DNA from: an uncultured Arenicella sp.
GTDB taxonomy: Bacteria; Pseudomonadota; Gammaproteobacteria; Arenicellales; Arenicellaceae
DNA length: 42,623 nt
Assembly (NCBI GenBank): GCA_937989675.1
Contig: CALKRK010000052.1
Coordinates: 1-42,623, forward strand
Reading direction: 5' to 3'
Shown here piece after piece: positions 3,605-21,189 of this stretch. Numbering within the stretch: the first letter of the stretch is position 1; every line of letters starts with the position of its first letter. Both the position numbers and the translations under genes were made by a program. Below the pieces are notes generated by a model. The model was not told where the DNA came from and made no database searches. It saw only the letters and a list, made by a program, of their open reading frames with translations.

Positions 3605-4480
3605 TTAACGAGATGGCGGCCGAGGAATCAGCGTTGAAGTAGACGATAGATAGCGTTGAAACTCCAGGTCATGTCCCCACCGTTGCTGCGCCTTGGCCGC
3701 CAGTAATGGAATACCGCTCACTCGAGTCAATAACAAGAAAACAAAGATTGGAGATATGAGTGTCACCCATTGCCAACCGCTTAAGATGGGCATCGCCATA
3801 ATTGCCATACCGCACCAAAGTACGATTTCACCGAAGTAATTCGGGTGCCTTGACCAGGACCATAAACCGGATGAAATAAACCTACCTTTATTCTTGGGGT
3901 TGCGCTTGAACGCGCGCTTTTGAGCATCAGCAATAACTTCTATCAAAAAGCCAAGTAACCATATGGCAATACCAATTTTCCCTAGCCACTCGAGAGGAAC
4001 CTTGTTGTTACTGGTGATAATGGCCAGCGCGCAAGCGGCAGTTAATAAAGCCCAAAGCGCCTGCATGGTCCAGGCCGATAAAAATCGCAATGGATGAACT
4101 TTAATGTCATCAAAACGGTCATCGTGGCCATCTTTACTGATACGCATAAATAAAAACGTACCCAAACGCAACGCCCACACCACAACCATCAGTGCGGCCA
4201 AAATTGAACGAGTATCTAAGCTGCTCGCCAACATCACCGCAAGTGCAATAATAGAGAGATAAGTAAGGCTACCTACCAAATCGTAGTATCGCTCTGACTT
4301 GGCCTGATTCGCCGGTATGAAAGCGAGCCAATTCACTAGAAAAGCCAGCAACCCACACAGAGCAAAAACAGGAATCGGACCTATTCTCGCGCCCTGACTA
4401 CCGCCAGCTAAACAAACGCCACCCGCAATTAGTACACACACGAGAATGGTAACAATAATGGAAGTGTTAGATCTTTGCAT
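3605..4480 (-). CDS. DUF1295 family membrane protein (steroid 5-alpha-reductase/ICMT-like fold)
   Basis: A 291-residue integral membrane protein with about seven hydrophobic segments. The C-terminal part carries WSRHPNYFGEIVLW near residue 210, the RHPNY hallmark of the DUF1295/steroid 5-alpha-reductase C-terminal family and related isoprenylcysteine methyltransferases. Bacterial members have no firmly established reaction; oxidoreduction or methylation of a lipid-like substrate is possible. It stands alone, convergent with aceA and sharing its terminator. The start is the ATG at 4480. The family call is good; no function is proposed. Confidence 0.85.
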   Translation of the reverse strand: MQRSNTSIIVTILVCVLIAGGVCLAGGSQGARIGPIPVFALCGLLAFLVNWLAFIPANQAKSERYYDLVGSLTYLSIIALAVMLASSLDTRSILAALMVVVWALRLGTFLFMRISKDGHDDRFDDIKVHPLRFLSAWTMQALWALLTAACALAIITSNNKVPLEWLGKIGIAIWLLGFLIEVIADAQKRAFKRNPKNKGRFISSGLWSWSRHPNYFGEIVLWCGMAIMAMPILSGWQWVTLISPIFVFLLLTRVSGIPLLAAKAQQRWGHDLEFQRYLSSTSTLIPRPPSR

Positions 4481-4797: not shown

Positions 4798-5583
4798 TCA
4801 AAGGTATCCCATACCAACCGGGCTGGACATCGTTTCGGACACATCAGGAACGCTAGCACCGCCACTATTGATTTCATCGGCCACTTCAATCAAAGTATCC
4901 ATAATTTTGCGAGTACTTTCATCAGGTATCCAGCCTGATACGGCAACCGCGCTATGCGCTGGTTTCCCGACGGGTACAGCCACAGTGTGTTGCTCATCTT
5001 TCACCAGTAACCTGACAAAGCCCTGATCCCGTATCGTTTTTAGGTCATCAAGTAGTGGAGCAATACCGCTTGGATACCTAGGAATATCTTTGCCATCGTA
5101 TAGAGCATAAATTGAATCGTCACTCAATTGTGACAACAATGCCATTCCAATGCCTCCAAGAGTCGCGGGATAAAGACCAATTCGACCGATCGCATCGGCT
5201 TCATGCATAGATGGGCGAGCGTGGTACAAATAGCTAACATTGTCGCGCCACAGTACACCCATAGCGACCGTGTGCCCAAAACGACGCAATTTGCTTAAAG
5301 CGGGGAGCGCTTTTTGTACAAATCCAGAAGCAAACATGGATTGCGCAGCCAACACCGTCATACCTGGCCCGGAAACGTATTTCCGGTCAGGTGTTTGCCG
5401 CGCAATATCCAAATAGGCGAGAGTCTTGAGTAAACGGTTAACGCGAGTTGGCTCAAAAGAAAGACGCCTAGATAGCTCAAGCCCGCCTACCGGTTCACTG
5501 GAAATTGCCAGTGCCTGCAAAACCGCAATTCCGTCGATCAGACTTCGGTTTGGTTGGGCGCCAGCGGATCGTTTTTTTGCCAT
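4798..5583 (-). CDS. IclR-family transcriptional regulator
   Basis: 261 residues. The N-terminal winged helix-turn-helix (about 13-75: IDGIAVLQALAIS, then GGLELSRRLSFEPTRVNRLL) and the C-terminal effector-binding domain (about 80-250, with GRIGLYPATLGGIGMALLS) are in the usual IclR order and length. IclR proteins of the KdgR type commonly control sugar-acid catabolism. This one lies downstream of the GH2 gene on the same strand (104-base gap), beside the receptor/catabolic operon, so it is the likely local regulator of the locus. Effector and sign of control are unknown; a keto-deoxy sugar acid is a reasonable guess. The inverted repeat at 5630-5659 in front of it could be an autoregulatory site. 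Confidence 0.9.
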   Translation of the reverse strand: MAKKRSAGAQPNRSLIDGIAVLQALAISSEPVGGLELSRRLSFEPTRVNRLLKTLAYLDIARQTPDRKYVSGPGMTVLAAQSMFASGFVQKALPALSKLRRFGHTVAMGVLWRDNVSYLYHARPSMHEADAIGRIGLYPATLGGIGMALLSQLSDDSIYALYDGKDIPRYPSGIAPLLDDLKTIRDQGFVRLLVKDEQHTVAVPVGKPAHSAVAVSGWIPDESTRKIMDTLIEVADEINSGGASVPDVSETMSSPVGMGYL

Positions 5584-5687: not shown

Positions 5688-8564
5688 TTAATCACTGAGT
5701 TTTTTAATTGTAACGGCAGGCCCAGGTTGCTGGCTATTATCAAGGCTGGATACCGTATAGTTTACATTTTGGGAGTCATCTAAACTAAGACCGTCAAGCA
5801 CAATAAAACCGGACTGAGCCAAGCGAGTATCGACAACCTGTTCAGTGTTTTCACCTGATATTGTTACTCGGTAGCCAGAGGCGCGATCCACTGGAGTCAA
5901 ACCAAGAATAACACCATCCTCAGTGGGAATGACATACGCATCTTGAGGAGCTGAAAGCCCATCTTTGCCAGGCAATTGAACTGAATATTCATCTGTCCAG
6001 TCACTGTCCACGCTGCCAGTGACTAAACGCCGCATTCTAAAATAATGTTTTTCACCCTCTTTAATTGCTGGAATACGCGTTGCTCCGTGTGTCTCGATTA
6101 AATGTCGTCGCTTATAGACGCCTGCCTCTAAACCATATTCAATTTCATACCGAAAGTCCTTGCGATGTGCTGAGAACCCAATAAAAAAGGCATCTTGTTT
6201 CGCCGAGGTCTCCCAGATAACCGGGGGCAACTCATCATTATCAGTAGCCACGTTGCCGGCCGCACTGGTCGCCTTGCTTTTACCCGCGTTATTTATTGCC
6301 ACCAACTCAACCTTATAAGATTTATTCGGCTGCAACTCTGGCATTTCAATAAAATCATTAATACTCGTATCACTGACCATTTTGTTGCCATCTTGATCCG
6401 TTAGTATCAACTGATGTTCATCAGCAATAGCTGATTTTTCAAACAACACTAAAATAGTATCAATTGAGGAATGTACGCTGCGAATTACTGGAGCCTTAGG
6501 CGCCTTGTAGTCATCATGTTTAGATAAAACCACGTAGCCAGCGGGGTCGATAAGGTGCGCAGAGAATTTCGCAAAACCCTTCCCGTGATCGATGGTATAC
6601 GTTGATACTGAGCTGTCGGGCTTTATGGTAGGCAGGCTAACGCTGCCAGCCGAAATTGTATTGCCATCCAAATCTCTACCGGTCCAGACTATGCGATACC
6701 CCTTAAGCGTAAAGGACGGAAAGCTATTTATGCTTCTCGGTTCAATCGATACTTCGTGGCCAGTACTCTTTCTGCTTACGTCCATCGACTCCACCGGAGC
6801 AAAAAAGTTTTGTACCCGCTTGAACGAACGTTTGGGCGTTCGAAACGCGGTCACGACCCCCCAACTTCTATTCTCTGACAAAGGCGTCGTCCACGTTGCC
6901 TTTTCATCACGCCAATTGCTGCGGTAATCGCTAAACGCAAAAAGTGACGTCCCAACTAAATACGGATACTTCTTAAGGCCACCCATCATTTCTTCTGGGT
7001 CCATGACTGACAAATTAGGGTCTTCAGAATCAAGTTGACGGCCAATTTCAGAAAAGAATATCGGTTTACCAGGCTGATATCCTCGCACCACTTTTAAACG
7101 CTCTTCATGATCATTGTATTTATTAAACATCACAATGTCTGAGAAGCTAGTCGGGTCATTAGCTTGAAAGTCAGCCGAATAGGAAATATAGACGGCAAGC
7201 CTTGTAGGGTCTAGTTTTCTAGCATGCTCCGTGGCTGTTTTTACATACTCGATCGCTTTAGGATTTTTATGTAAATCACCAATTTCATTACCAACACTCC
7301 AGGCCACAACGGATGGATGGTTGTAGTGATCGTCCACCATACGTTCTAGCCAGAGTTTAGGCAATGGGTGGTCGGGGTCTACCAATCTGTCTTTGCCCCA
7401 TAGACCAACTTCTTCTACCAATAAAAAGCCAACTTCGTCTAAGTAATCTAAATATTCTTTTGGCAGTGTTGGGCCAGACAAACGTGCAAAATTTGCGTTA
7501 AGAGATTTTAGTATATCAACATCTTCTTTGATGCGTGACAACGGCAAGGCATTACCATCGAATCGGTCTTCTGGCACCATATTGAAACCAACCAATCTTA
7601 CAGCTTCACCGTTCAAAAATAGCTGCTCGCCTTTTACTTCTACCTTACGAATGCCGAAGCGATCTTTCTCCAAATGAATCTCTTGGCCTTCTAACCTCAA
7701 TATCGCTTCAATAGAATACAGATTAGGCTCGTTAAAATGCCAAAGTGCCACCAATTCAGGTGAAAGCTCAAGTTCCGAGTCAATTTCAGTCATTTCGCCC
7801 GCGACAACGCGTTGTTTGTCTAAGGAGTGACTAGCGACAACCACACCTTTTCGCAGAATGTTCAAATCAATACCCACTTGCGAACTGTCTATTGAGCTCG
7901 ACACTCTGGTTTTCACGCCAATATGCGCGCTGCCCTGTTCAAGATCAGGCGTTGCCGTAACGTGCACTCGCTCAATTCTTGTTTGTGGCGTTATCTCTAT
8001 ATAAACTGGGCGACGTATTCCGCCCCAGTTCCATACCGCACCTCGCTTAACTCTATTATTAACCCGGACAACAAGCGTATTTTCTCCCTGCTTTTTAAGG
8101 ACATCTTCTATCTGAAAACTGAACGGAATAAACCCTAGCTGACTCTCTCCTAGTTTCGAGCCATTCAACCATATTTCGGAGTCGTGATACACACTATCAA
8201 ACACCAAGCGAGCCCCTTTACCATCCCAATCAGAACCGGTAGAAAAGCTTGTGCGGTACCACGCATCACCGGTGTAATCATGATATTGATCATACACATC
8301 CCAAACTCCGGGAACAGAGATACTGTCCCATTGAGCGGTATTAAATTCAGGCTTCCACCATTGCTGCCCCCCCCCTTTTTTGTATGGGTCAATCTGAAAA
8401 GACCAGTCGCCAGCTAGAGAATACGTTTTGGTCTCGATCTGCTCTTTTACAGCTCTCTCCTGCGCCTGAGTCAATAGGCTAATGAGGAATAAACTTAGAA
8501 ATGCGACTACTGCAAGACTCCTATTAAGCCTTCGAATAAACACTGATATGGTTCCTATATACAT
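5688..8564 (-). CDS. Secreted glycoside hydrolase family 2 protein (beta-galactosidase-like) with C-terminal Fn3-type domains
   Basis: 958 residues. A signal peptide (about 1-35, ending TQAQ) sends it to the periplasm or outside. Then come the GH2 sugar-binding jelly roll (about 45-190), the immunoglobulin-like domain (195-305) and the TIM barrel (310-590). Acid/base Glu427 lies in WSVGNEIGD and nucleophile Glu506 in IFFSEIGRQ. The last 350 residues look like fibronectin type III repeats. The usual RxSHYP barrel motif reads RLSGP here (361-365), so the conserved His is lost. The start at 8564 has TAGGA in front; GTG at 8543 would also give a good signal peptide. In an agarase locus it probably removes terminal beta-linked galactose or a modified galactose. 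An A6G9 run interrupts the first domain. Confidence 0.9.
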   Translation of the reverse strand: MYIGTISVFIRRLNRSLAVVAFLSLFLISLLTQAQERAVKEQIETKTYSLAGDWSFQIDPYKKGGGQQWWKPEFNTAQWDSISVPGVWDVYDQYHDYTGDAWYRTSFSTGSDWDGKGARLVFDSVYHDSEIWLNGSKLGESQLGFIPFSFQIEDVLKKQGENTLVVRVNNRVKRGAVWNWGGIRRPVYIEITPQTRIERVHVTATPDLEQGSAHIGVKTRVSSSIDSSQVGIDLNILRKGVVVASHSLDKQRVVAGEMTEIDSELELSPELVALWHFNEPNLYSIEAILRLEGQEIHLEKDRFGIRKVEVKGEQLFLNGEAVRLVGFNMVPEDRFDGNALPLSRIKEDVDILKSLNANFARLSGPTLPKEYLDYLDEVGFLLVEEVGLWGKDRLVDPDHPLPKLWLERMVDDHYNHPSVVAWSVGNEIGDLHKNPKAIEYVKTATEHARKLDPTRLAVYISYSADFQANDPTSFSDIVMFNKYNDHEERLKVVRGYQPGKPIFFSEIGRQLDSEDPNLSVMDPEEMMGGLKKYPYLVGTSLFAFSDYRSNWRDEKATWTTPLSENRSWGVVTAFRTPKRSFKRVQNFFAPVESMDVSRKSTGHEVSIEPRSINSFPSFTLKGYRIVWTGRDLDGNTISAGSVSLPTIKPDSSVSTYTIDHGKGFAKFSAHLIDPAGYVVLSKHDDYKAPKAPVIRSVHSSIDTILVLFEKSAIADEHQLILTDQDGNKMVSDTSINDFIEMPELQPNKSYKVELVAINNAGKSKATSAAGNVATDNDELPPVIWETSAKQDAFFIGFSAHRKDFRYEIEYGLEAGVYKRRHLIETHGATRIPAIKEGEKHYFRMRRLVTGSVDSDWTDEYSVQLPGKDGLSAPQDAYVIPTEDGVILGLTPVDRASGYRVTISGENTEQVVDTRLAQSGFIVLDGLSLDDSQNVNYTVSSLDNSQQPGPAVTIKKLSD
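8367..8381 (-). repeat. Homopolymer tract A6G9 inside the GH2 gene
   Basis: Plus-strand C9T6 reads AAAAAAGGGGGGGGG in the coding direction and encodes KKGGG at about residues 62-66 of the GH2 protein. Such runs are slippery for polymerases and ribosomes, and could switch the gene on and off or be a sequencing-error hot spot. In this copy the frame is intact. Confidence 0.8.
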
Positions 8565-8760: not shown

Positions 8761-8837
8761 AGCATTATATTGTCTTAGAACAATCAATAATTACTTATAA
8801 AGATAGCCACAAAATGACACCTATAAGGAGGGTTAAA

Positions 8838-11618
8838 ATGACAACCAAAACCAACTTTCATCAAAAGAATTGGGACAGTATTAGGAAAGCCATAGTAACA
8901 ACAGCCGCAGCACCACTCTTTATTGCATCCTTTCCTACCTACTCTCAAGAAAGTGAAGACATAAAAAGTGCGGACAATGATTCACCTGTCCTTGAAAGTA
9001 TCGTTGTGACAGGTATACGTAGGAGCTTAACCGAGGCGCGCGACCTAAAACGCACCACCAACCAATTCATTGACGCCGTTGTTGCCGAAGACATCGGAAA
9101 GCTACCTGATAACAATGTAGCGGAGTCATTGCAACGCGTTTCAGGAATTCAGCTTGACCGAGGTATTGGTGAAGGTACGTCAGTGTCGATCCGAGGTATT
9201 CGAAATAATGTGGTTTTACTGAATGGTCGAGAGATCTTTGATGCCGGTGGTCGAGGCGGACAAGGGCCAGATACGCTAGGTACGTCAACCTATGGTCTTT
9301 TGTCCCTAGTACCATCCGAATTAATTTCGCGTTTAGAAGTCACAAAATTAGCTGGTGCGGATGAAATAGAGGGTGCTATAGGTGGTACCATCAATATTGT
9401 TACGGCAAAGCCACTTGACTCTCCGGGCTTCAGAGCTTCAGGAAGCGTGGGCACAAGATATGGTGACCTAAGTGGCGAAGCAAACCCAAAGGCGTCGTTT
9501 TTGGTCTCTAATACCTTCGCCGATGATACCTTTGGCATTTCACTAAGTGGTTCATACAGCGACAATAATTATAGAGAAGACGGTTTCAACACCTTTTCTG
9601 GATATACTCGCCTTGAAAACGGCTTAAATTTCACTGACCTGAATTCCTTTAATGCTGTAACCGGCCCGGATGGACTGTTACTTAACCCAGACCCAAATGG
9701 CGACGGGGTAAACGGAATTGTCCATCAAGATCCGCGTTACTGGCAAATCAATGATGGCCGAGAGCGAACTGGTTTTAACCTAAATGCCCAGTGGCTACCC
9801 AATGAAGCTATGGAGCTAAATTATGACGTGCTCTATTCAAAGGTTGAGTCTCAACGAGACAGATACTGGCTCGGTGTGTTCGTGCCTTTTGGTCGAATCG
9901 AAAACGCCGTGCTTAGCGATAATGAAGTGTTGATTAGTGGTATTTCAAACCGCCCTCAGCAGACGAATGTAGAATATGCCGACTTTGAATCAGAAGTTGT
10001 TTCTCAGGCACTCACCTTCAACTGGGACATATCAGAAAACATTCGCTTAAACACAGAGCTTGCCATGTCGAGTTCTGAAAGCACAACACACCAAAACTTT
10101 TTCCGCTTGCAGGCCACCGAGCGCCCTCCTCTACCGTTTTCTTTTGTGCCAGAAATTCCTGAGTTCGGATTTAATGGCGGTTTGTTAAGCGACATCGACT
10201 CACTTCTGTTGACGATTTTATTTGATAGTCGAAGCGGATCGGAAACTGACAATACAGCACTGAGTTTAGATTTTGACCATTACATTAACGATGGCCTAAA
10301 CCTTGAGTATGGGGCACGTTACTCAAAAGTCGAGACAGCATTTACATCCGACACCGTTGACTTGCGGCCAAACACACCCGCAGCCGGTTTAAGCCAATTT
10401 ATTTCAACGTGGTCTAGCCCTGACTTCTTCGCAGGCGAAGCTCCAAGCGTTCCACGTTCCTACCTTGTTGGCTCAAACGTTTTAAGAAGTGCTGGCGGGG
10501 GCTGCGCCGCTTTGGAAAGCTTCTATCTCAACAACCCCGACCCAGCACAAAGAGACGCCTATCTAAATGGCGGAAATCCAGGTTTAGGTTGCGGAACTCA
10601 TGCGGCCGAAACTGATACAGTTGAAGAAGAATTTCAGGCAATTTATGCAAAGCTTAATTTCACATCGGAATTAGGCTCTATACCGGTGTCTGGTAACGTT
10701 GGAGTTCGTTATCTCAATCGAGACCTTACCTCTACCGGCACGTTACTACTGGAAGGGTCTCCACCACAGCCCTTTGTTACCAAAAAAGACGACTCGACTG
10801 TACTACCGTCGGCGGTCGTGAAATTCGATTTAAACGACAATCTAGTTGCTAGAGCTGGCTATGCCAAAGTGCTTTCTTACCCAAGCTCAGGAAGCTTGAG
10901 AAACAATCTAACACTTTTTGGTAGTGGTGACGGCTTTGGCGGTTCACCAGAACTTGACCCGTTTGAAGCTGATCAATTCGACCTGTCACTGGAATACTAC
11001 TTTTCAGAAGACGCGCTGCTTTCAGTAGCCTATTTCAAGAAGGAAATAGACTCTTTCGTTATCCAGCAAACAGACCGAGAAGTCATTCCTAACTTTGTTA
11101 ACCCGGATGATGGCTCAAACCTAGGTTTGATCTCTCGCGGCGTCAACGGTGATGGTGGGTCGGTTGATGGAATTGAGCTGTCTTACCAGCAGTCTTTTTC
11201 AACATTACCCGCCCCATTAGACGGCCTTGGTATACAAGCAACGTATACAAACATTTCCAGCGACACTCCGTTTACCGACCCAAGCGGGCGTGTACTGCCT
11301 CAGCCAGGCTTATCCGAAAACAACATAAACGCAGTTCTGTATTGGGAAAAAGGCCCACTAGGAGCGCGCCTAGCTTATAACTGGCGTGACGAATACCTTG
11401 ATCGCTTAGGTTTCAGTGGCTCAGGCATTTTTGCTGACTCTTATGACGATCTGGTATTTAGCGCGTACTACGATATTAATGACAGATTCACAGTATCGTT
11501 TGAAGCGACAAACTTACTGGATACTCGCCTTAAGCTTTTCAATACATCTACTGAGGCAACTCGTAGCATTGTGGAATTTGGGCCTTCCTATGCATTAACA
11601 CTGCGCGGTTCTCTATAA
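8838..11618 (+). CDS. TonB-dependent outer-membrane receptor (TIGR01782-like, carbohydrate type)
   Basis: Imports a large solute, here probably galactan oligosaccharides, across the outer membrane using TonB energy. The start is the ATG at 8838, because AAGGAGGG ends six bases before it. 926 residues: signal peptide (1-38), TonB-box-like LESIVVTG, plug domain (VAEDIGKLPDNNVAESLQRVSGIQL, then SVSIRGIRNNVVLLNGREI), and a beta-barrel rich in alternating aromatic strands. The plug wording is typical of the Xanthomonas/Caulobacter-type receptors found in polysaccharide loci. The last residue is Leu (RGSL), not the common terminal Phe or other aromatic. First gene of the plus-strand block, followed by its own terminator. 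Confidence 0.94.
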   Translation: MTTKTNFHQKNWDSIRKAIVTTAAAPLFIASFPTYSQESEDIKSADNDSPVLESIVVTGIRRSLTEARDLKRTTNQFIDAVVAEDIGKLPDNNVAESLQRVSGIQLDRGIGEGTSVSIRGIRNNVVLLNGREIFDAGGRGGQGPDTLGTSTYGLLSLVPSELISRLEVTKLAGADEIEGAIGGTINIVTAKPLDSPGFRASGSVGTRYGDLSGEANPKASFLVSNTFADDTFGISLSGSYSDNNYREDGFNTFSGYTRLENGLNFTDLNSFNAVTGPDGLLLNPDPNGDGVNGIVHQDPRYWQINDGRERTGFNLNAQWLPNEAMELNYDVLYSKVESQRDRYWLGVFVPFGRIENAVLSDNEVLISGISNRPQQTNVEYADFESEVVSQALTFNWDISENIRLNTELAMSSSESTTHQNFFRLQATERPPLPFSFVPEIPEFGFNGGLLSDIDSLLLTILFDSRSGSETDNTALSLDFDHYINDGLNLEYGARYSKVETAFTSDTVDLRPNTPAAGLSQFISTWSSPDFFAGEAPSVPRSYLVGSNVLRSAGGGCAALESFYLNNPDPAQRDAYLNGGNPGLGCGTHAAETDTVEEEFQAIYAKLNFTSELGSIPVSGNVGVRYLNRDLTSTGTLLLEGSPPQPFVTKKDDSTVLPSAVVKFDLNDNLVARAGYAKVLSYPSSGSLRNNLTLFGSGDGFGGSPELDPFEADQFDLSLEYYFSEDALLSVAYFKKEIDSFVIQQTDREVIPNFVNPDDGSNLGLISRGVNGDGGSVDGIELSYQQSFSTLPAPLDGLGIQATYTNISSDTPFTDPSGRVLPQPGLSENNINAVLYWEKGPLGARLAYNWRDEYLDRLGFSGSGIFADSYDDLVFSAYYDINDRFTVSFEATNLLDTRLKLFNTSTEATRSIVEFGPSYALTLRGSL

Positions 11619-11636
11619 TTTTATTCTCTCCTATTC

Positions 11637-11668
11637 GAGAGCAGGCAATTTGTCTGCTCTCATTTTTT
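11637..11668 (+). terminator. Intrinsic terminator after the receptor gene
   Basis: GAGAGCAG (11637-11644) pairs with CTGCTCTC (11654-11661), and the loop can add a CAA/TTG pairing. ATTTTTTT follows. It separates the receptor transcript from the downstream catabolic genes, which suggests they have their own promoter in 11670-11900. Confidence 0.88.
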
Positions 11669-11902
11669 TATACCTAAAATTTGAAACACAACTACGGTCA
11701 AGCGTAAATTAAGGACATGATAGAGACACAATCGACTTTTTATACCTTCGAATGATCAAAAGCTATTAATTAAACCTCGCAGCCACCTATTAGACCTTCT
11801 AGTGGCAACCATTAGAATCGATAGGTAGTGTGAATAAAAACAACCTATATTGCGAATAACGACGCAGTACCAATTAACTATACAAAAAGTTTAGGCATTA
11901 TT

Positions 11903-12838
11903 TTGACTACACAATTTTCGGGTGTTCTACCTGTGATACCCACCCCTTTTTCACAAGAAAACGAAGTAGACTTGGAGTCTTTAAAAAGTGTCGTGCAATA
12001 CGCGACTGACAGCCACGCAAATGCGCTGGTTTATCCTGGTGTGGCTAGCGAAGACATTCAGCTAAGTGCGCAAGAACGTTTACAGTGCCTGACGGTTGTC
12101 ACCGAAACAGCAGCAGGCCAGACACCAATCATCGCTGGAGTTAACTCAAACGAACCAGAAACCATGGTTGAGATGGCAGCATTAATGCGCCAACACGGAG
12201 CTGATGGCATCATGGCTATGGCGGTACCAAGCATGGTCGAAAAAGGCTACAAGTACTGGTTTCAAGCTATTTCAGACGCCACTGATGGCTTACCGATTAT
12301 TCTGCAAAATCTATTTTCCCCCAGAGGTGCTGACCTCAGCGCTGACCAGATGATAGAACTGGCTAAAGACGTTGAAGCCATACGCTATGTTAAAGAAGAA
12401 GGCATTCCATCAGGACCAAAGGTGAGCGCCGTATTCAAAAATGCGGGAGATTATCTGGATGGCATTATTGGAGGCGGTGGCGCACGCTACGTGTTTGAAG
12501 AACTTGAACGTGGCGCAATAGCCACAATGCCGGCCATTGAGCTCTTAGAGCTTCATGTTGCTTTGCTTGAATCTTATCTGGCTGGTGAGCGTGATAAGAC
12601 ACTACGACTCTACCAACAAAGCCTAGCGATCCTGTTAATGCAAGCTCCATACCGAATGCGTTTAACCAAATTGATTCTTAAACACCGAGGAATTATCAAG
12701 ACGGACGTCGTTCGCGAATCTCTTCCCGAGCTGGATGAATACTCTAAAAAGTTAATCTTAGAAATGTACCAACAGTTAGACCTAACTAACGTATCTAGTG
12801 GCATTGCTGATAACTGTATGGCTCTTAATCATGCATAA
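11903..12838 (+). CDS. DapA-superfamily aldolase/dehydratase (sugar-acid lyase candidate)
   Basis: 311 residues with the class I aldolase barrel of the dihydrodipicolinate synthase/N-acetylneuraminate lyase superfamily. Schiff-base Lys164 lies in IRYVKEEG. The GTTGE loop is changed to GVASED (46-51). Where DapA has the catalytic Tyr of its YN motif, this protein has Gln-Asn (LQNLFSP, 134-140), as in a sub-branch of uncharacterised members. It is therefore not the lysine-pathway enzyme. Beside an enolase-superfamily dehydratase, it most likely cleaves or dehydrates a 2-keto-3-deoxy sugar acid, giving pyruvate plus a three-carbon aldehyde if an aldolase. The start is TTG at 11903 with AGG seven bases upstream. 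It overlaps the next gene by 8 bases, so translation is probably coupled. Confidence 0.85.
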   Translation: MTTQFSGVLPVIPTPFSQENEVDLESLKSVVQYATDSHANALVYPGVASEDIQLSAQERLQCLTVVTETAAGQTPIIAGVNSNEPETMVEMAALMRQHGADGIMAMAVPSMVEKGYKYWFQAISDATDGLPIILQNLFSPRGADLSADQMIELAKDVEAIRYVKEEGIPSGPKVSAVFKNAGDYLDGIIGGGGARYVFEELERGAIATMPAIELLELHVALLESYLAGERDKTLRLYQQSLAILLMQAPYRMRLTKLILKHRGIIKTDVVRESLPELDEYSKKLILEMYQQLDLTNVSSGIADNCMALNHA

Positions 12839-14000
12839 CACCATAGAACATATTGATGTATTCGTTTTTGAACGAGAGCCTAATCAAGCCTACCTTGGTG
12901 ATGTAAGCGATGGTGACATCCAGCTAAATGAGCACCATTTTGTGCGAAAATTCAATGGTACCGTCTACCCACTTCGTGATCGGTCAGTTGTTGTTCGAAT
13001 TATCGACAAAGACGGTGTTATCGGTTGGGGCGAAACCTATGGATTAGTCGCCCCGAAAATTGTTGCCGCTCTGGTAGATGATTTGTTTGGGCCGTATCTA
13101 AAGTCACTTGATCCAATGTCCCCTGACAAAGTTTGGGATGCCTTCTATTCATTGCAACGTAATCGGGGTTATTGGGGTGGCTACCTTGCTGATACCTTTG
13201 CCGCCATTGATATTGCTCTGTGGGACTTATATTCGCGAGCGCAAGGCATCAGCATTCAAGCCGCGATTGGCTGCGCAGGTAACGGCAAGGTTCGAGCCTA
13301 CGTATCCGGTTTACCCAAAAACACCACTGAGGAACGCGTAGAGCTTGCACAAGCATGGCAAGCAAAGGGGTTCGACCAACTTAAGATTCCCATTAGCGCT
13401 ACTCAAGATGGTGACGTGCCAGGCGAATTTAATGCACTACGCAAGGCTCTTGGTGAAAAGCAGAAAATTGCGTTGGACATGCACTGGTGTAAATCCACCG
13501 AAGAAACAATCACTATCGAAAGTGCCATTCGCCCCTATAACCCTTGGTTTATTGAAGCGCCTACCTTGCCTGAAGATGTTGAAGCCCAAATACGCATAGG
13601 TCAATCAATGCCTACACCACTCGCCTTAGGTGAGGAATGGCGCACCGAATGGGATTACCGTCTGCGCAAAGACAGCTGCCGGATTGTACAGCCAGAAATG
13701 GGGCATACCGGAATCACGCAGTTTCTCCGCATTAGCAAACTAGCGCAAGCAAATAAAGCACTTGTTATGCCTCATGCCACTATCGGTATGGGCATATTTA
13801 TGGCCGCAAGTTTAAGAGCCGCGCTGGCGGTAGACGCAGCCGCACATGAATTTCAGCACACGATTTACCATAGAAACGGGGCGTTACTCGAAGGTACTGC
13901 CTCTTGCGAAGAGGGCTACTTTGATATTCCTGACACCCCTGGCCATGGAGTCGTGCCCAATGACGAGGGCCTTGGCTATTTAACTCTATTGCAGGTTTAA
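12831..14000 (+). CDS. Enolase-superfamily (mandelate racemase group) sugar-acid dehydratase or cycloisomerase
   Basis: 389 residues. The start is the ATG at 12831 (MHNTIEHIDV), inside the end of the DapA-like gene. Metal ligands are Asp216 (LDMHW), Glu242 (WFIEAP) and Glu268 (ALGEEW). His218 two residues after the first ligand and His315 (VMPHATIGMG) match the acid/base layout of galactonate-type dehydratases. The usual KxK of many group members is Lys185-Ile-Pro (LKIPIS). Such enzymes remove water from aldonates to give 2-keto-3-deoxy acids. In agar users a relative converts 3,6-anhydrogalactonate to a 2-keto-3-deoxy acid. Galactonate dehydratase or anhydrogalactonate cycloisomerase are both possible; sequence alone does not decide. 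Confidence 0.85.
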   Translation: MHNTIEHIDVFVFEREPNQAYLGDVSDGDIQLNEHHFVRKFNGTVYPLRDRSVVVRIIDKDGVIGWGETYGLVAPKIVAALVDDLFGPYLKSLDPMSPDKVWDAFYSLQRNRGYWGGYLADTFAAIDIALWDLYSRAQGISIQAAIGCAGNGKVRAYVSGLPKNTTEERVELAQAWQAKGFDQLKIPISATQDGDVPGEFNALRKALGEKQKIALDMHWCKSTEETITIESAIRPYNPWFIEAPTLPEDVEAQIRIGQSMPTPLALGEEWRTEWDYRLRKDSCRIVQPEMGHTGITQFLRISKLAQANKALVMPHATIGMGIFMAASLRAALAVDAAAHEFQHTIYHRNGALLEGTASCEEGYFDIPDTPGHGVVPNDEGLGYLTLLQV

Positions 14001-14046
14001 TTTCACTGATCAATCTGTGATCACAACGCCTATTACAAAAACACCT

Positions 14047-14790
14047 ATGACGACTACTTACACAGACTTTAAACAAAAACATGTCATCGTAACAGGCGCG
14101 GCCAACGGTATTGGGCAGGCCATCGCCCTCGCCTTCGCTGAGCAAAATGCAGTTGTCGGCGCATGGGACATTGATGAAGAGAACTTACGGCGAACCTGCA
14201 TTGACCACGACAACCTCTACCCGCTAGTTTGCGACTTGTCAGACCCTAAGCAAGTTGCCTCAACACATGCTTTGGCCGTAGCTAAGCATGGTGAAGTAAG
14301 TACGTTGATTAATAATGCGGGCGTGGATCGACGCATGTCTATCAGTGAGCAATCGTCGCAGGATTGGCGTTGGATGTTATCCGTAAATCTGGATCATCAA
14401 GCACAATTGAGCGCACTGGTGGCGCCTGCCATGAAACAACATAACACCGGCGCTATTATTAACATGTCGTCAACCGCCTGGATGAAGCTGGCTGAAAACC
14501 TGACGGCTTACCATGCGGCCAAGGCCGGTGTGATTGGACTAACCCGCGGTCTTGCGAGTGAACTCGGGCCTTACAACATCCGTGTCAACGCGATTGCTCC
14601 AGGCCGCGTTATCACGGAACGAGTGGCAAACCTGGTGGACGAAAAATGGATTGAGGAAACCAAGCAACTACAGTGCCTTAAATATCTGATTAGCCCAGAA
14701 GATATTGCCCAAACTGCGTTATGGCTCGCATCACAATCAGCAAGAAGCATTACAGGCCAAACCATCATTGTTGATGCTGGCGTAACGTAA
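14047..14790 (+). CDS. Short-chain dehydrogenase/reductase, sugar dehydrogenase-like
   Basis: 247 residues from the ATG at 14047; an upstream GTG at 14017 adds ten unlikely residues. Classical SDR features: TGAANGIG (16-23) for dinucleotide binding, Asp41 at the end of strand two suggesting NAD rather than NADP, NNAG (89-92), Ser141/142, Tyr155 and Lys159. The C-terminal stretch (TERVANLVDEKW, then ISPEDIAQTALWLAS and TGQTIIVDAG) resembles sugar 1-dehydrogenases and keto-deoxy-aldonate dehydrogenases. In this operon it would either oxidise galactose to galactonolactone or oxidise a 2-keto-3-deoxy acid. It lies 46 bases after the dehydratase gene. Confidence 0.87.
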   Translation: MTTTYTDFKQKHVIVTGAANGIGQAIALAFAEQNAVVGAWDIDEENLRRTCIDHDNLYPLVCDLSDPKQVASTHALAVAKHGEVSTLINNAGVDRRMSISEQSSQDWRWMLSVNLDHQAQLSALVAPAMKQHNTGAIINMSSTAWMKLAENLTAYHAAKAGVIGLTRGLASELGPYNIRVNAIAPGRVITERVANLVDEKWIEETKQLQCLKYLISPEDIAQTALWLASQSARSITGQTIIVDAGVT

Positions 14791-14847
14791 AAGTCGGTCT
14801 CGCGCTCGAATACATAAATTCCAAAAAAACAATAATTTGATTCCAAT

Positions 14848-16551
14848 ATGACTCAGTTTGACACAATAACCGCCGTAATCTTCAGCTTAGTTGTTTTTTC
14901 GGCCGGACTCGCGTTTGCGCGACTCAGTTCAGGTTCGGGCACTCGATCCTTCTTCTCTGGCGGCGGTGCAGTGCCTTGGTGGGTTAGTGGTCTATCCTTA
15001 TACATGAGTTTCTTTTCCGTCGGCACCTTTGTGGTCTGGGGGTCAATTGCCTATTCCGACGGCTTAGTCGCCGTCACAATTCAAACCATGATGTGTTTGG
15101 CGGGTATTATCATCGGCGCCATGATCGCACCACGCTGGAATCGAACATCGGTCATGACTGCGGCCGAGTACATAGGTGACCGTTTAGGTGAAAAAACCAA
15201 AGTCACTTACACATCACTCTTCTTACTGAGCTCAATGGTTGGTATGGGCGGGTGGCTGTACCCAGTTGGAAAAATAGTTGAGGTGTCAACTGGTATACCA
15301 TTGGAAACCGCCATCCTGTTTCTCGCCGGGTTCATTCTTGTTTACACCGTTGTTGGTGGCTTGTGGGCCGTTTTAGTCACCGACATTCTGCAGTTCGTGG
15401 TACTCAGCGCGGCTATCATCATCGTTGTACCCTTGGCATTTGGGCAAATCGGTGGTTTCAGCGGCTTTCTGGAAAAAACTCCAGAGGGTTTTTTTAACCT
15501 CACCAACAGTGAATACACGCCAGGCTTTCTCATCGCCTTTTTAGTTTACAATACCGTCTTCATTGGTGGCCACTGGGGCTACGTGCAACGCTACACTACG
15601 GTTTCATCACCGTCATCGGCCAGAAAAGTAGCCTGGCTATTTTCAGCCCTGTATTTGTTTAGCCCATTAATTTGGATGCTGCCCCCGATGATCTACCGAG
15701 TTATGCAACCCGACCTCGCCGGTCTTGCCAACGAAGGCGCCTACATGCTGGTAAGCAAAGCGGTTCTGCCAAGTGGCATATTGGGGCTTATGATCGCAGC
15801 CATGGTGTTTGCCACGGCCAGCTCAGTAAACACGGTTTTGAACATATCCGCAGCTGTATTCACCAATGATATATACAAACCATTACGCAAGTCTGCGTCA
15901 GAGAAACATCTGCTGACGGTTGGCCGACTATCAACCGCTGTGTTGGGAATCACCGCCGTGGTGAGTTCATTTTTTGTGCAGCACTTTGGTGGGCTAGTGA
16001 ATATGATACTGGCTATATCGGCTATTATAGGGGGCTCGTTGTTCATGCCACCGATATGGTCGCTGTTTTCACGGCGTCAAACGGCACGTAGCATTCTGAC
16101 CGTGACATTCATCTCCTTAGGCGCAAACATTGCCCTAAACCTCATTACACCGAGCACACTGGGAATCTCCCTGGACCGCAGCGAACAAATGATGTTTGGT
16201 GTATTTTTCCCGCTTACACTACTGTTAGCTTTCGAGCTTTGGTACCTCCTGCAGAACAAGGAAGACCCTCAAATGGCGCACTACGATGCCGCCACGCGAA
16301 TGCGTCGTCAGCAAAAAGTCAGTGCCGTTGAACAATCGTCAGAACAACACGTTGATGATCAATCAGTCACTATTATTTCTCTCAGCATTTGCGTTGTCGG
16401 CCTGTTAATTATTGCGCTAGGAATGATCGCTGAGAGCGCGACACTCACGGTCTCGACCACCGGTTTCATCATTTTGCTTGGAGGCGCATGCCTTAATCCA
16501 CGCTTCCGACGTTGGAGAAGCGGCATAACACAGAAGAATACCGGTATGTAG
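14848..16551 (+). CDS. Sodium:solute symporter (SSS family)
   Basis: 567 residues with about 13-14 membrane segments. The N-terminus (SFFSGGGAVPWWVSGLSLYM, then GTFVVWGSIAYSDG) and ASSVNTVLNISAAVFTNDIY near residue 325 are typical of sodium/sugar and related symporters. The position between the catabolic enzymes and the GH50 gene suggests uptake of a monosaccharide or small oligosaccharide from the periplasm. The sugar cannot be read from the sequence. 57 bases separate it from the SDR gene and 87 from GH50, consistent with one operon. Confidence 0.9.
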   Translation: MTQFDTITAVIFSLVVFSAGLAFARLSSGSGTRSFFSGGGAVPWWVSGLSLYMSFFSVGTFVVWGSIAYSDGLVAVTIQTMMCLAGIIIGAMIAPRWNRTSVMTAAEYIGDRLGEKTKVTYTSLFLLSSMVGMGGWLYPVGKIVEVSTGIPLETAILFLAGFILVYTVVGGLWAVLVTDILQFVVLSAAIIIVVPLAFGQIGGFSGFLEKTPEGFFNLTNSEYTPGFLIAFLVYNTVFIGGHWGYVQRYTTVSSPSSARKVAWLFSALYLFSPLIWMLPPMIYRVMQPDLAGLANEGAYMLVSKAVLPSGILGLMIAAMVFATASSVNTVLNISAAVFTNDIYKPLRKSASEKHLLTVGRLSTAVLGITAVVSSFFVQHFGGLVNMILAISAIIGGSLFMPPIWSLFSRRQTARSILTVTFISLGANIALNLITPSTLGISLDRSEQMMFGVFFPLTLLLAFELWYLLQNKEDPQMAHYDAATRMRRQQKVSAVEQSSEQHVDDQSVTIISLSICVVGLLIIALGMIAESATLTVSTTGFIILLGGACLNPRFRRWRSGITQKNTGM

Positions 16552-16638
16552 CGCGACACTAAAAACAGACAGAAACCTTCCTTTTTGGTGCCGCCTTCCC
16601 GAACGAGAGCGTACGGAAAACTCAAGGTAGATAACAAA

Positions 16639-18933
16639 ATGAACCGACACATACGAAAATCACTGATGGTAATGGCCATAGCAAACCTAACGTTCGCTTG
16701 TACACACCAGCCTTCAAAGAATAAAACAACATCTGAATCACAAGCAACGTTATTGGACTTCGAGAAAACGTACGATGTTTCACTAGTAGAGTTAGAAAAT
16801 GCCCAAGCAGATCGAGTAGCGATCAATACAGGGCATGCTCTACACATTGATTTACAATCATCTAACCACCACAACACATCTTTCACGCTTAAACCTAACG
16901 AACCTTGGGACTTCAGCCATCTGCCTAATGTGGCCATTGCCGTAGACATTGAGAACCCAGAAAAGTCCTCCGTGCATGCATACATTTACACGTATGACGC
17001 CGATGGAAAGTTTCAACTACGCAATGTGGCAATCCCAGCCGAATCCAAAGCCAGCTACCTTATCGAGCTAAAGGTGCCCTCTTTGCAACTCAACAGCGGC
17101 ATTCGCAACAACCCGCCAAGTTGGCCACACAACCATGTACAAACCATTTGGCGTGGCGGTAGCAGTTCACTCAACGTAGGCGCCATTAGCTCAGTACGCT
17201 TTATGATTTCTGGCGTACTCGAAGACAAGAAGCTGACCATTGATAATGTAAGAGCTATTGAACCGAAAAATTTTAATCCAAAATTTATGAAAGGCTTAGT
17301 TGATAAATTTGGGCAGAACACCAAGCAGGGCTTTACAAACAAAGTCCACAGTATCAATGAGCTAAAATCATATTCAGAACAAGAACAATCATTATTACAA
17401 AACACCTCACTTTCTGATCGATCAACGTTTAATGGCTGGGCTAGTGGCACCCGCCTAGAAGCCACAGGCTACTTTCGCACGGCAAAACACCAAGGTAAAT
17501 GGACGCTAGTTGACCCGGAAGGATACCTGTTTTTTTCTAATGGTATAGCCAATATCAGAATGGCTAACACATCGACCATTACTGGCTATGAATTTGATGT
17601 AAATCTCATCAAACAACGTGATGCCCGCGACTACACGCCAGAAGACTCGATTGGCCTGAATCGTGCACCTAAGGCCGCTTGGCCTACTCGCCGCGTTAGC
17701 TCAGCCCTCCGCGCCAACATGTTTACCTGGCTGCCCTCTTATCAAAGTGAAGAAGCTGAAAGTTTCGGCTATCGCCGCTCGGTGCACTCTGGGGCACTTG
17801 AACATGGCGAGACCTATAGTTTTTATCGTGCCAACTTAGCCCGAAAGTATGAAACTAACGAAGAACCCCTACTCATGCAGCGCTGGCGTGATACCACCAT
17901 CAAACGCATGCACAGTTGGGGGATGACGTCATTTGGTAATTGGGTTGACCCCAGCTTTTACCAACTTAACCGCCTACCCTACTTTGCTAACGGATGGATT
18001 ATAGGGGATTTTAAAACAGTGAGTTCCGGCAACGATTACTGGGGGGCGATGCCTGATCCTTATGACCCATTATTTGCCGAACGTGTGGACGAAACAATTA
18101 AGCAAGTCGCTCACGAGGTAGACAATAACCCCTGGTGTATTGGTGTTTTTATCGACAATGAAAAAAGCTGGGGCAGTGTCGGCAGCGTGCAATCGCAATA
18201 TGGGATCGTGCTAAATGGTCTAAAAATGAACGCCGCTGATAGCCCATTCAAAAGGTCGTTAGTGAAACAACTGAAAAACCGATATGCATCAATTGATGAG
18301 CTGAATAAAGCATGGGAGGGCAAGTTCGACTCTTGGGAATCATTTGCACAAAAAGCCGTGTTAGTCGAATTCAGCGATCTAATGGTTGGAGATTTATCAA
18401 GCTTACTAAAGAACTATGCCGAAACGTATTTCAGATTGGTTGACAGTGCAATGGATCAATACATGCCAAACCACCTGTATATGGGGCCGCGTTTTGCGCA
18501 TTGGGCTATGGGGCCTGAAGTTCGCCAAGCGGCAGCTAAATATGCTGATGTAATGAGCTACAACTATTATCGCGAAGGAATTGATCAACCTTATTGGGAT
18601 TTTCTAGAGCAATTAGATATGCCCAGTATTATTGGTGAATTTCATATTGGTGCAATGGATTCAGGCCTATTCAATCCGGGCTTAATTCACGCTGAATCTC
18701 AGATTGATCGAGGTAAAAAATATCAAGAGTATATCGGCAGTGTCCTAGACAACCCTTACATGGTTGGGGCACATTGGTTCCAGTACATCGACTCCCCTCT
18801 CACAGGACGAGCTCATGATGGAGAAAATTACAACGTGGGTTTTGTCAACGTGGCGGACATTCCATATGCACCTTTGATTGAGGCAGCAAAACAGATAAAC
18901 AGCACGTTATACAAGCGTCGCTTTGGACGGTAA
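16639..18933 (+). CDS. GH50 beta-agarase-type lipoprotein
   Basis: 764 residues from the ATG at 16639 (MNRHIRKSLMVMA). The short N-terminal signal ends FACTHQ with Cys21, a non-ideal but likely lipidation site, so it is probably membrane-anchored in the outer membrane or periplasm. An N-terminal beta-sandwich (about 38-210) resembles a carbohydrate-binding module. The catalytic barrel follows: GYFRTAKHQGKWTLVDPEGYLFF begins near 277, NGWIIGDF at 451, acid/base Glu508 in FIDNEKSWG and nucleophile Glu667 in IIGEFHIGA. These fit GH50, whose known members are mainly beta-agarases releasing neoagaro-oligosaccharides. This identifies the probable substrate of the whole locus. Action on another red-algal galactan is possible. 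Confidence 0.88.
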   Translation: MNRHIRKSLMVMAIANLTFACTHQPSKNKTTSESQATLLDFEKTYDVSLVELENAQADRVAINTGHALHIDLQSSNHHNTSFTLKPNEPWDFSHLPNVAIAVDIENPEKSSVHAYIYTYDADGKFQLRNVAIPAESKASYLIELKVPSLQLNSGIRNNPPSWPHNHVQTIWRGGSSSLNVGAISSVRFMISGVLEDKKLTIDNVRAIEPKNFNPKFMKGLVDKFGQNTKQGFTNKVHSINELKSYSEQEQSLLQNTSLSDRSTFNGWASGTRLEATGYFRTAKHQGKWTLVDPEGYLFFSNGIANIRMANTSTITGYEFDVNLIKQRDARDYTPEDSIGLNRAPKAAWPTRRVSSALRANMFTWLPSYQSEEAESFGYRRSVHSGALEHGETYSFYRANLARKYETNEEPLLMQRWRDTTIKRMHSWGMTSFGNWVDPSFYQLNRLPYFANGWIIGDFKTVSSGNDYWGAMPDPYDPLFAERVDETIKQVAHEVDNNPWCIGVFIDNEKSWGSVGSVQSQYGIVLNGLKMNAADSPFKRSLVKQLKNRYASIDELNKAWEGKFDSWESFAQKAVLVEFSDLMVGDLSSLLKNYAETYFRLVDSAMDQYMPNHLYMGPRFAHWAMGPEVRQAAAKYADVMSYNYYREGIDQPYWDFLEQLDMPSIIGEFHIGAMDSGLFNPGLIHAESQIDRGKKYQEYIGSVLDNPYMVGAHWFQYIDSPLTGRAHDGENYNVGFVNVADIPYAPLIEAAKQINSTLYKRRFGR

Positions 18934-19014: not shown

Positions 19015-21189
19015 TCACTTACCAGTCAGACCTTTGCGCTCTAGTAGTGGTTGAATATTTGGCTCGGCACCTCTGAAGTTTTTAAAGATAGACATCGCAT
19101 CTTCGGAACCGCCTCGAGAAAGCAGTGTCTTACGAAAATGGTCACCATTTTCGCGTGTCATTCCACCGTTTTCTTTAAACCATTCTACCGAGTCAGCATC
19201 CAGCACCTCACTCCAAATATAGGAATAATAACCAGCCGAATACCCGCCTAGAATATGTGAAAAGTAGGTGCTGCGATACCTCGGCGGTACGGCGTCCAAT
19301 TTCACACCAGCCTTGCTTAACGCAGCCTCTTCAAATGCCAAAACGTCTTCAGCATTAGGTACCTCATCAGGCGTTAGCTGGTGCCATGCTTGATCTAACA
19401 ATGATGCTGCAAGATATTCAGTTGTACCGTAACCTTGATTAAATTTTGAGCTGGCCAAGACTTTATCCAACAAAGCACGAGGCATCGGCTCACCGGTTTC
19501 GTGATGCTTCGCATAATTGGCTAGTACCTCAGGCCAATCAGCCCACATTTCATTGACTTGCGACGGATACTCCACAAAGTCTCTCGGTACCGAGGTGCCA
19601 GCAAACGATGGGTAATTTACATCTGAAAACATGCCATGCAGCGCGTGCCCAAATTCATGGAACATCGTAGTAACTTCATCCCAGGTCAACAAGGTTGGTT
19701 CACCTGCGGGCGGCTTGGGCACATTCAGGTGATTCGCCACCACGGGTTCAGTCCCCATCAACTTAGACTGAGACACATAGGCGTTCATCCAAGCACCACC
19801 GCGCTTTGACTCACGCGCATAAAAGTCTTCAATGAATAGAGAGAGTGTGCGGCCATCGGCATCAAACACTTCCCAAACATTGACGTCTGGGTGATAAGTT
19901 GGCAAGTCCGTGCGTTTTTTAAAAGTAAGCCCAAACACTTTTTCGGCGGCAAAAAACACTCCGTTAACCAATACGTTTTCCATTTCAAGATATGGCTTCA
20001 ACTGAGATTCATCAAAGTTATAGCGCTCTGCTCGCACTTTCTCTGAATAGTAATCCCAATCCCAAGCAGCAAGTTCAAAATCACCACCCTGAGACTTGAT
20101 CATCTCCTGTAAGTCAGCAGCTTCGCGCTTTGCATTCGCAACCGACGCGGGCGCGAGCGTGGCCAACCGTTTATTCACAGCGTCGGTCGTTTTTGCGGTT
20201 TGACTCACCAATTGATAGGCCGCGTGATTCTCATATCCAAGCAACTGAGCACGCTCAGCGCGCAATTTAAATACTTTGGCAATCAGTTCACGGTTATCGA
20301 AATCACCACCATCGCTGCCACGAGAAAGAGATGTTTTTAGTATGCGTTCACGCAAGGCTCGATTATCTAACGACGACAAAGACGGTTGCTGACTAGTGTT
20401 CAATAAAGGCAACACATACTTACCTTCTAAACCTCGCGCTTTCGCCGCCTCGAGAGCTGACGCTATCTGGCCCTCGGAGAGCCCCGCCAAATCTTCCACT
20501 TTATCGACAATAATCGCTCTTTCGTTTACTTCTTCAAGCACGTTTTGACTGAATTTCGTAGTCAAAACGGAAAGCTCTGAATTGATTGCCTTTAATTTCT
20601 CTTTATCGTCGGCTGACAATTCAGCGCCTGCCCCGACAAAGTCTTTATACGTTTCAGACACCAATCGTTTTGATTCAGCGTCCAGGCCTAATTGGTCCAC
20701 ATTGTCATGTATTGTCTTAATGCGCGCGAAAAGCTTTGAATCCAACAAAATCTCATCTGAGTGCGCTGATAGCTTTGGAGCAAATTCGGCACGTAGCGCT
20801 TTAATGTTGTCATTGGTATGTGCCGATGACATAGCAAAAAACACGCTGGCAACACGGTTTAGTAGCTGCCCGCTTCGCTCCATCGGTATCATGGTATTTT
20901 CAAAAGTCGCAGCGTCGAGGTTTGCCGTAATTGCCGCAATTTCAGCTAGCTGATCTTGCATCCCTTGGGTAAATGCTGGTGCATAGTGGGCATTGGTAAT
21001 TTTATCAAACGCTGGATAGCGCATGAATAAATCACTTTCTTTGTAAAACGGGTTGCTTTCGCTTAAGGGGGCGTTCACTTCTTTTGATGCCTCTTGTTTT
21101 GCTGAACTTAGCGCAGCTATATTATCAGTGTGATTACAAGCTCCAACGGTCAAGCAAAAAGCCGCCGTTGCAATCGATATCTTTTTCAT
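19015..21189 (-). CDS. dcp: M3-family zinc metallopeptidase lipoprotein (peptidyl-dipeptidase Dcp-like)
   Basis: 724 residues. The signal peptide ends LTVGAC with Cys18, a good lipobox, so it is a lipoprotein rather than the cytoplasmic form. The zinc site HEFGH is at 511-515 in TTMFHEFGHALHGMFS, with a further glutamate ligand about 25 residues later (PSQVNEMWADW). Length and the sequence around the site match peptidyl-dipeptidase Dcp, which removes C-terminal dipeptides. It probably recycles peptides in the periplasm. It diverges from the class V PLP gene and has no visible link to the sugar genes. Confidence 0.93.
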   Translation of the reverse strand: MKKISIATAAFCLTVGACNHTDNIAALSSAKQEASKEVNAPLSESNPFYKESDLFMRYPAFDKITNAHYAPAFTQGMQDQLAEIAAITANLDAATFENTMIPMERSGQLLNRVASVFFAMSSAHTNDNIKALRAEFAPKLSAHSDEILLDSKLFARIKTIHDNVDQLGLDAESKRLVSETYKDFVGAGAELSADDKEKLKAINSELSVLTTKFSQNVLEEVNERAIIVDKVEDLAGLSEGQIASALEAAKARGLEGKYVLPLLNTSQQPSLSSLDNRALRERILKTSLSRGSDGGDFDNRELIAKVFKLRAERAQLLGYENHAAYQLVSQTAKTTDAVNKRLATLAPASVANAKREAADLQEMIKSQGGDFELAAWDWDYYSEKVRAERYNFDESQLKPYLEMENVLVNGVFFAAEKVFGLTFKKRTDLPTYHPDVNVWEVFDADGRTLSLFIEDFYARESKRGGAWMNAYVSQSKLMGTEPVVANHLNVPKPPAGEPTLLTWDEVTTMFHEFGHALHGMFSDVNYPSFAGTSVPRDFVEYPSQVNEMWADWPEVLANYAKHHETGEPMPRALLDKVLASSKFNQGYGTTEYLAASLLDQAWHQLTPDEVPNAEDVLAFEEAALSKAGVKLDAVPPRYRSTYFSHILGGYSAGYYSYIWSEVLDADSVEWFKENGGMTRENGDHFRKTLLSRGGSEDAMSIFKNFRGAEPNIQPLLERKGLTGK

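Follow-up and report, generated by a model that had tools for sequence, protein, structure and literature searches.

The window, by which we mean the whole 42,623-nucleotide stretch of DNA from an uncultured Arenicella sp. that was analysed, contains eight genes that run from an IclR-type regulator to a GH50 beta-agarase and are flanked on both sides by host backbone genes. Six of the eight are intact open reading frames with significant profile matches and follow one another on the plus strand: a TonB-dependent outer-membrane receptor (TBDR; 8814–11618; TIGR01782, 573.7 bits, cut-off 310), an enzyme of the DapA/NAL superfamily (11903–12838; DHDPS, PF00701, 94.5 bits, cut-off 22.1), an enolase-superfamily (MR_MLE) enzyme (12831–14000; MR_MLE_C, 127.7 bits), a classical SDR (14017–14790; adh_short_C2, 190.6 bits), a sodium:solute symporter (SSF; 14848–16551; 136.6 bits) and the GH50 enzyme (16585–18933; Agarase_CBM, PF17992, 203 bits, with a full-length GH50 alignment). 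The DapA and MR_MLE reading frames overlap by 8 nt, the likely MR_MLE start being the ATG at 12831, ahead of the DapA stop; for the SDR, a later start at ATG 14047 is possible. The remaining two genes lie immediately to the left on the minus strand and encode a GH2 glycoside hydrolase with Glyco_hydro_2 domains that is probably secreted (5688–8564) and the IclR-type regulator, which has weak Pfam IclR_C/HTH_IclR matches (4798–5583). The initial annotation had set the extent of the locus at 8838–18933, which proved too narrow in that the GH2 and IclR genes are part of the same inserted unit.

Comparison with related genomes defined the boundaries of this unit. On the left lies a DUF1295 gene (3605–4480, minus strand) and on the right an M3 peptidase gene (19015–21189, minus strand) whose product is 72–80% identical in ten congeners. 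In three congeners (G010, G017 and G007) these two genes are directly adjacent with nothing between them, in others they are separated by one to three unrelated genes, and in the window the eight genes from IclR to GH50 occupy exactly this gap. A search for the MR_MLE enzyme across 108 other genomes of the order came back empty, as did one for the GH2 across 368 others of the class. Because the flanks adjoin in congeners and these two genes were not found in the other genomes searched, the IclR-to-GH50 genes constitute one acquired, discrete island of about 14 kb that is to be read as a unit. Within the window, base composition did not set the island apart from its surroundings. The insertion site varies among congeners, being either empty or filled by one to three genes; in two of them it holds a 229-aa gene, a relative of which is found on contig C31 of the present genome (L068, 3035–3718).

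The GH50 enzyme ties the island to agar. GH50 homology extends across the full length of the protein, including a CBM-like domain (E 1e-230 to 6xj9 and 7.5e-225 to 4bq2), which bears out the earlier description of an agarase locus. An internal ATG at 16639 is followed by a lipobox-like LTFAC, and the agarase is probably a lipoprotein. The best solved relatives of the GH2 protein are beta-galactosidases, and it is 56% identical to the GH2 of the corresponding Sphingomonas cluster; it is a candidate agarolytic beta-galactosidase, and release of D-galactose from agaro-oligosaccharides is a known activity of some GH2 enzymes. The IclR regulator is 57% identical to that of the Sphingomonas turrisvirgatae cluster and 50% identical to a Catenovulum IclR adjoining GH2-SSF-GH16. 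IclR would be expected to control the island, and no shared regulator site was found in the intergenic regions of the window and of Sphingomonas. The TBDR, which is 53% identical to a Sphingomonas receptor adjoining GH2, and the SSF symporter, which is 50–52% identical to Catenovulum symporters near GH16 and GH2/GH117-like genes, have predicted transport roles, the latter as the presumed importer of the released sugar. The NCBIfam models closest to the SDR, those for D-xylose 1-dehydrogenase and glucose 1-dehydrogenase among them, scored below the curated cut-offs; by profile, the enzyme appears to be of the aldose 1-dehydrogenase type. SDRs encoded in the related operons described below share 53–60% identity with it.

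The MR_MLE enzyme retains both the DxH and the PH histidines of D-galactonate dehydratase: its DMHW and PHATIG motifs align with DFHG and PHCPLG of the genome's own DgoD and are invariant in ten homologues. Against the DgoD equivalog model NF010624 it scored 140.7 bits, under the cut-off of 311, and the MR_MLE protein on contig C85 of the same genome scored 653 bits. These features suggest that it is likely an acid-sugar dehydratase with a D-galactonate-dehydratase-like active site, belonging to a subfamily other than DgoD. Orthologues with 59–65% identity occur in marine Rhodobacterales, Granulosicoccus and S. turrisvirgatae. Its match to the cycloisomerase VejACI reached only E 4e-19, and it differs from the genome's own homologue of that enzyme. 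Since it lacks the cycloisomerase active-site motifs, a part in the late steps of anhydrogalactose breakdown, which the initial annotation had offered as one option, is unlikely. A uronate-dehydrogenase/galactarolactone route was also considered and rejected: the SDR is of the classical and not the extended type, and the MR_MLE enzyme lacks the motifs expected for such a route.

More unusual is the DapA-family enzyme, whose AlphaFold model is confident, with a pLDDT of 89.5. Its Schiff-base Lys164 is invariant in 11 homologues and aligns with Lys171 of the L-2-keto-3-deoxyarabinonate dehydratase (KdaD) of Azospirillum. At the position of the proton-shuttle Tyr of class I DHDPS/NAL aldolases stands Gln135, likewise invariant, and PGVASE replaces the GTTGE of aldolases, leaving the GxxG(E) substrate motif unmatched. 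Glu166 is also invariant, and the Gln135/Glu166 pair matches Gln143/Glu173 of KdaD, an enzyme reported in a review to have Gln in place of the aldolase Tyr and a Glu173 conserved in no other family member. KdaD (7c0c) was the best match by sequence, Foldseek and VIA, at 24–25% identity; in the structure comparison it gave a Z of 38.5 versus 37.1 for a sialic acid lyase, a margin too small to tell dehydratase from aldolase. Against a KdaD assignment, all homologues have a glycine (Gly193) where KdaD has its second base Glu200, with an invariant Gly-rich motif, GGGGAR, instead. Arg195 is invariant in the 11 homologues and missing from KdaD. By these residues the protein is not a standard aldolase, and it is not a standard KdaD either; we place it in an uncharacterised subgroup. 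We did not find this subgroup, its place in a red-galactan locus, or a DapA-type KDPGal aldolase in the open-access papers searched. Direct aldol cleavage appears doubtful because the catalytic Tyr is replaced by the invariant Gln135. Of the oxidise-dehydrate-cleave scheme first proposed for the SDR, MR_MLE and DapA-family enzymes (hereafter the trio), the oxidation and dehydration logic stood and the direct cleavage became questionable.

Analysis of related loci revealed that a DapA gene lies beside an MR_MLE gene in every one with full flanks, most of them also carrying a similar SDR; the linkage of DapA and MR_MLE is not a matter of chance. The closest parallel is the S. turrisvirgatae cluster, which comprises IclR, MFS, DgoK, DapA, MR_MLE, SDR, GH2 and TBDR, with GH50 further on, and thus has the genes of the island minus the SSF symporter. 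The DapA and MR_MLE proteins of the window and Sphingomonas grouped together at 93% bootstrap. The agarolytic complement of S. turrisvirgatae (C57: L013, L034; C10: L036/L037) includes several GH50 genes, GH16, a cycloisomerase homologue and sulfatases, one of which seems to be fragmented; no GH117 was found there, either with a Catenovulum GH117 query that had no positive control or with a distant GH43/117-like query. In marine alphaproteobacteria and Granulosicoccus, the operon reads DapA, MR_MLE, an ABC transporter, an IclR domain fused to an SMP-30/SGL lactonase, and SDR. This conserved gene set occurs on Agrobacterium and Rhodobacterales replicons (L064, L065, L009–L017), and its Agrobacterium pAtC58 version (L064, 8096–17823) encodes the protein of structures 2NQL/4DN1, together with a different SDR that is not orthologous to that of the island. 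We found neither a function for the DapA-MR_MLE-ABC operon nor a substrate for 2NQL/4DN1 in the open-access papers searched. A divergent 2-keto-3-deoxygalactonokinase (DgoK) adjoins DapA-MR_MLE in Phaeobacter, Marinovum and Agrobacterium. No DgoA was annotated or found beside DgoK in the loci of these three genera or of Sphingomonas, and canonical DgoA is also present in the alphaproteobacterial genomes searched. The alphaproteobacterial SDR, lactonase, dehydratase, kinase and DapA would together form a complete route from galactose to pyruvate. In Catenovulum adriaticum, homologues of IclR, GH2 and SSF lie beside GH16 and the trio is absent. Catenovulum also has two GH43/GH117-like proteins distant from GH117 (L103, 19373–20461; L071, 32668–33753), one of which adjoins GH2 and an IclR homologue; the pair are possible anhydrogalactosidases.

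We then turned to the sugar pathways of the remaining genome, searching the assembly (80% complete, 288 contigs) by family and region. Profile searches confirmed that the block first described has neither GH117 nor an aldehyde dehydrogenase, and the island has no PF01081 aldolase, DgoK kinase or lactonase. The supposition that the trio takes the place of the usual galactose and anhydrogalactose genes nevertheless failed, as canonical routes were found elsewhere in the genome. Contig C277 carries an anhydrogalactonate cycloisomerase homologue (E 1.8e-147 to VejACI); the genes beside it encode an aldehyde dehydrogenase, two SDRs and a zinc ADH. The DgoD equivalog is on C85; C31 carries GH50, an SGL lactonase, a DgoD-like MR_MLE, an SDR, a sugar porter and SGL-DgoA-DgoK; C120 carries DgoA-DgoK-GH42; and C87 an Eda-type (KDPG) aldolase. 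There are accordingly two DgoK-DgoA pairs in the genome (C31 and C120) and none in the island. Among the genes that the initial annotation had suggested looking for, an aldehyde dehydrogenase (beside the cycloisomerase), the KDG kinase (on C31, scoring below its equivalog cut-off) and the KDPG aldolase are present. GH117 was not found: a Catenovulum GH117 query (E 2.5e-50 to the canonical 3p2n) returned nothing from the 80%-complete assembly, a search with no positive control, and a second query, a distant GH43/117-like protein, recovered its own record and nothing in this assembly. With the cycloisomerase locus, DgoD, DgoK-DgoA, lactonases, KDG kinase and Eda all in the same genome, the trio is an additional route beside the canonical ones and no substitute for them. 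Five GH50 genes are present in the assembly. One, on C206 (L031), has an unusual neighbourhood for an agarase, in that the genes after it encode a DUF1592/DUF1588/planctomycete-cytochrome protein and a DUF1552 protein; near another, on C33, lies a protein with eCIS_core and OmpA domains (L033, 6409–8349).

On balance, we favour a reading of the island as an acquired set for red-algal galactan, in which SDR, MR_MLE and DapA would act in that order on a galactose-type sugar. GH50, presumably with GH2, would release oligosaccharides and a galactose-type sugar, which the TBDR and SSF would carry inward. The SDR would then oxidise the sugar at C1. From the resulting galactonate-type acid the MR_MLE enzyme would remove water, and the 2-keto-3-deoxy acid so formed would be processed by the DapA-family enzyme via a Schiff base. 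We infer both the substrate and the order of reactions from sequence. The best-supported core of the proposal is SDR oxidation and MR_MLE dehydration of a galacto-configured sugar, and the most likely substrate would be D-galactose or a substituted D-galactose, such as 6-O-methyl-D-galactose, rather than 3,6-anhydro-L-galactose; the earlier suggestions of a galactose-type substrate and of a variant of known routes are thereby supported. The island has no lactonase or kinase, so that these would have to come from genes elsewhere or be dispensed with, and a second route for plain D-galactose would be redundant where DgoD and two pairs of DgoK and DgoA exist already. As to the final reaction, the make-up of the related operons, with a kinase next door and a complete set, favours cleavage by a DapA-type aldolase, possibly on a phosphorylated acid, an assignment we make tentatively. 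The active-site residues favour a KdaD-like dehydration, which we hold with slightly less confidence.

One form of the proposal is a De Ley-Doudoroff variant that converts D-galactose to galactonate and KDGal, with phosphorylation by DgoK and cleavage by DapA to pyruvate and glyceraldehyde-3-phosphate, Arg195 binding the phosphate. The position of DgoK next to DapA-MR_MLE in Agrobacterium, Marinovum, Phaeobacter and the Sphingomonas cluster, with no DgoA beside it, would make the set complete, and the invariant Arg195 that KdaD lacks fits a phosphorylated substrate; yet Gln135 is in the place of the proton-shuttle Tyr and the alphaproteobacterial genomes have canonical DgoA as well, and we consider this variant possible but rather doubtful. 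The matching Lys, Gln and Glu residues and the top rank of KdaD by sequence, Foldseek and structure would instead agree with an elimination in which the 2-keto-3-deoxy acid loses its substituent at C4, giving a Weimberg-type pathway from L-arabinonate or a 2,5-dioxo acid from a hexonate. This is unlikely given the low overall identity, the glycine at the second base in all homologues, the inconsistent linkage of a semialdehyde dehydrogenase in related loci and the fact that L-arabinose is no agar sugar.

The coexistence of canonical galactose genes and the parallel with sulfofucose make a substituted galactose attractive as substrate. A C6-blocked galactose, for example the 6-O-methyl-D-galactose of agar and porphyran, would be unusable by the phosphorylating route, and this would account for the trio persisting alongside DgoD, DgoK and DgoA; sulfofucose, also blocked at C6, is degraded by the same logic, and the one P450 that turned up in the genome resembles CYP120 and is not evidently a 6-O-methylgalactose demethylase. 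However, the assembly is incomplete and the linkage of DgoK in alphaproteobacterial operons suggests a free C6 hydroxyl there, so that we give this specific form little weight. Very improbable is the notion that the breakdown of anhydrogalactose falls to the trio in a genome without the usual genes: GH117 went undetected and both pathways pass through a 2-keto-3-deoxy acid, but C277 has genes for the cycloisomerase, an aldehyde dehydrogenase, SDRs and a zinc ADH, and the cycloisomerase motifs are missing from the MR_MLE enzyme of the trio. Both agarolytic genomes with the full module, this one and S. turrisvirgatae, have a cycloisomerase homologue and no detected GH117. A GH117-independent split of neoagarobiose, in which the SDR would oxidise C1 of the reducing galactose and the MR_MLE enzyme would beta-eliminate the C3-linked anhydrogalactose to give 2-keto-3-deoxygalactonate and free anhydrogalactose, seems highly unlikely as well. 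If the trio works as we favour, on a galactose-type sugar, red-algal galactans would feed a second oxidative route ending in an enzyme of the uncharacterised DapA subgroup. Assigning its reaction would likewise explain the role of an operon widespread in alphaproteobacteria, which includes the protein of 2NQL and 4DN1.

SDR/MR_MLE/lactonase sets have already been reported for red-algal galactan loci. With the De Ley-Doudoroff pathway (DgoD/DgoK/DgoA), as in PUL 7 of Pseudoalteromonas carrageenovora (PMC6262041), the island shares a sugar dehydrogenase and an enolase-superfamily galactonate dehydratase alongside red-algal galactanases; it differs in having a DapA-family enzyme instead of DgoK and a PF01081 DgoA, and an MR_MLE of another subfamily. 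The Vibrio sp. EJY3 3,6-anhydro-L-galactose pathway (VejAHGD, VejACI) likewise uses an enolase-superfamily enzyme to bring an agar sugar to a 2-keto-3-deoxy acid, but here the cycloisomerase homologue is on C277 and has an active site unlike that of the trio MR_MLE. KdaD (7c0c; PMC9795676, PMC13398020) and the island DapA have in common the Schiff-base Lys, the Gln for the aldolase Tyr and the Glu two residues past the Lys, at 25% identity and with GGGGAR conserved in the latter where Glu200 is missing. The sulfofucolytic Entner-Doudoroff pathway of Paracoccus, shown experimentally to act through SDR, MR_MLE and HpcH aldolase on a C6-blocked galactose (PMC12421959), shares SDR and MR_MLE on a D-galacto sugar followed by a non-phosphorylative last step; its aldolase is HpcH (PF03328), its sugar is sulfonated and it has no glycoside hydrolases. 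We rejected it as an assignment for the island, whose third enzyme is a DHDPS (PF00701) protein and not an HpcH (PF03328) aldolase. The pAtC58/Rhodobacterales operon has orthologous DapA and MR_MLE (44–65% identity for MR_MLE) and, in most marine loci, an SDR with 53–60% identity; in the island, GH2, TBDR, SSF and GH50 replace its ABC transporter, lactonase fusion and DgoK.
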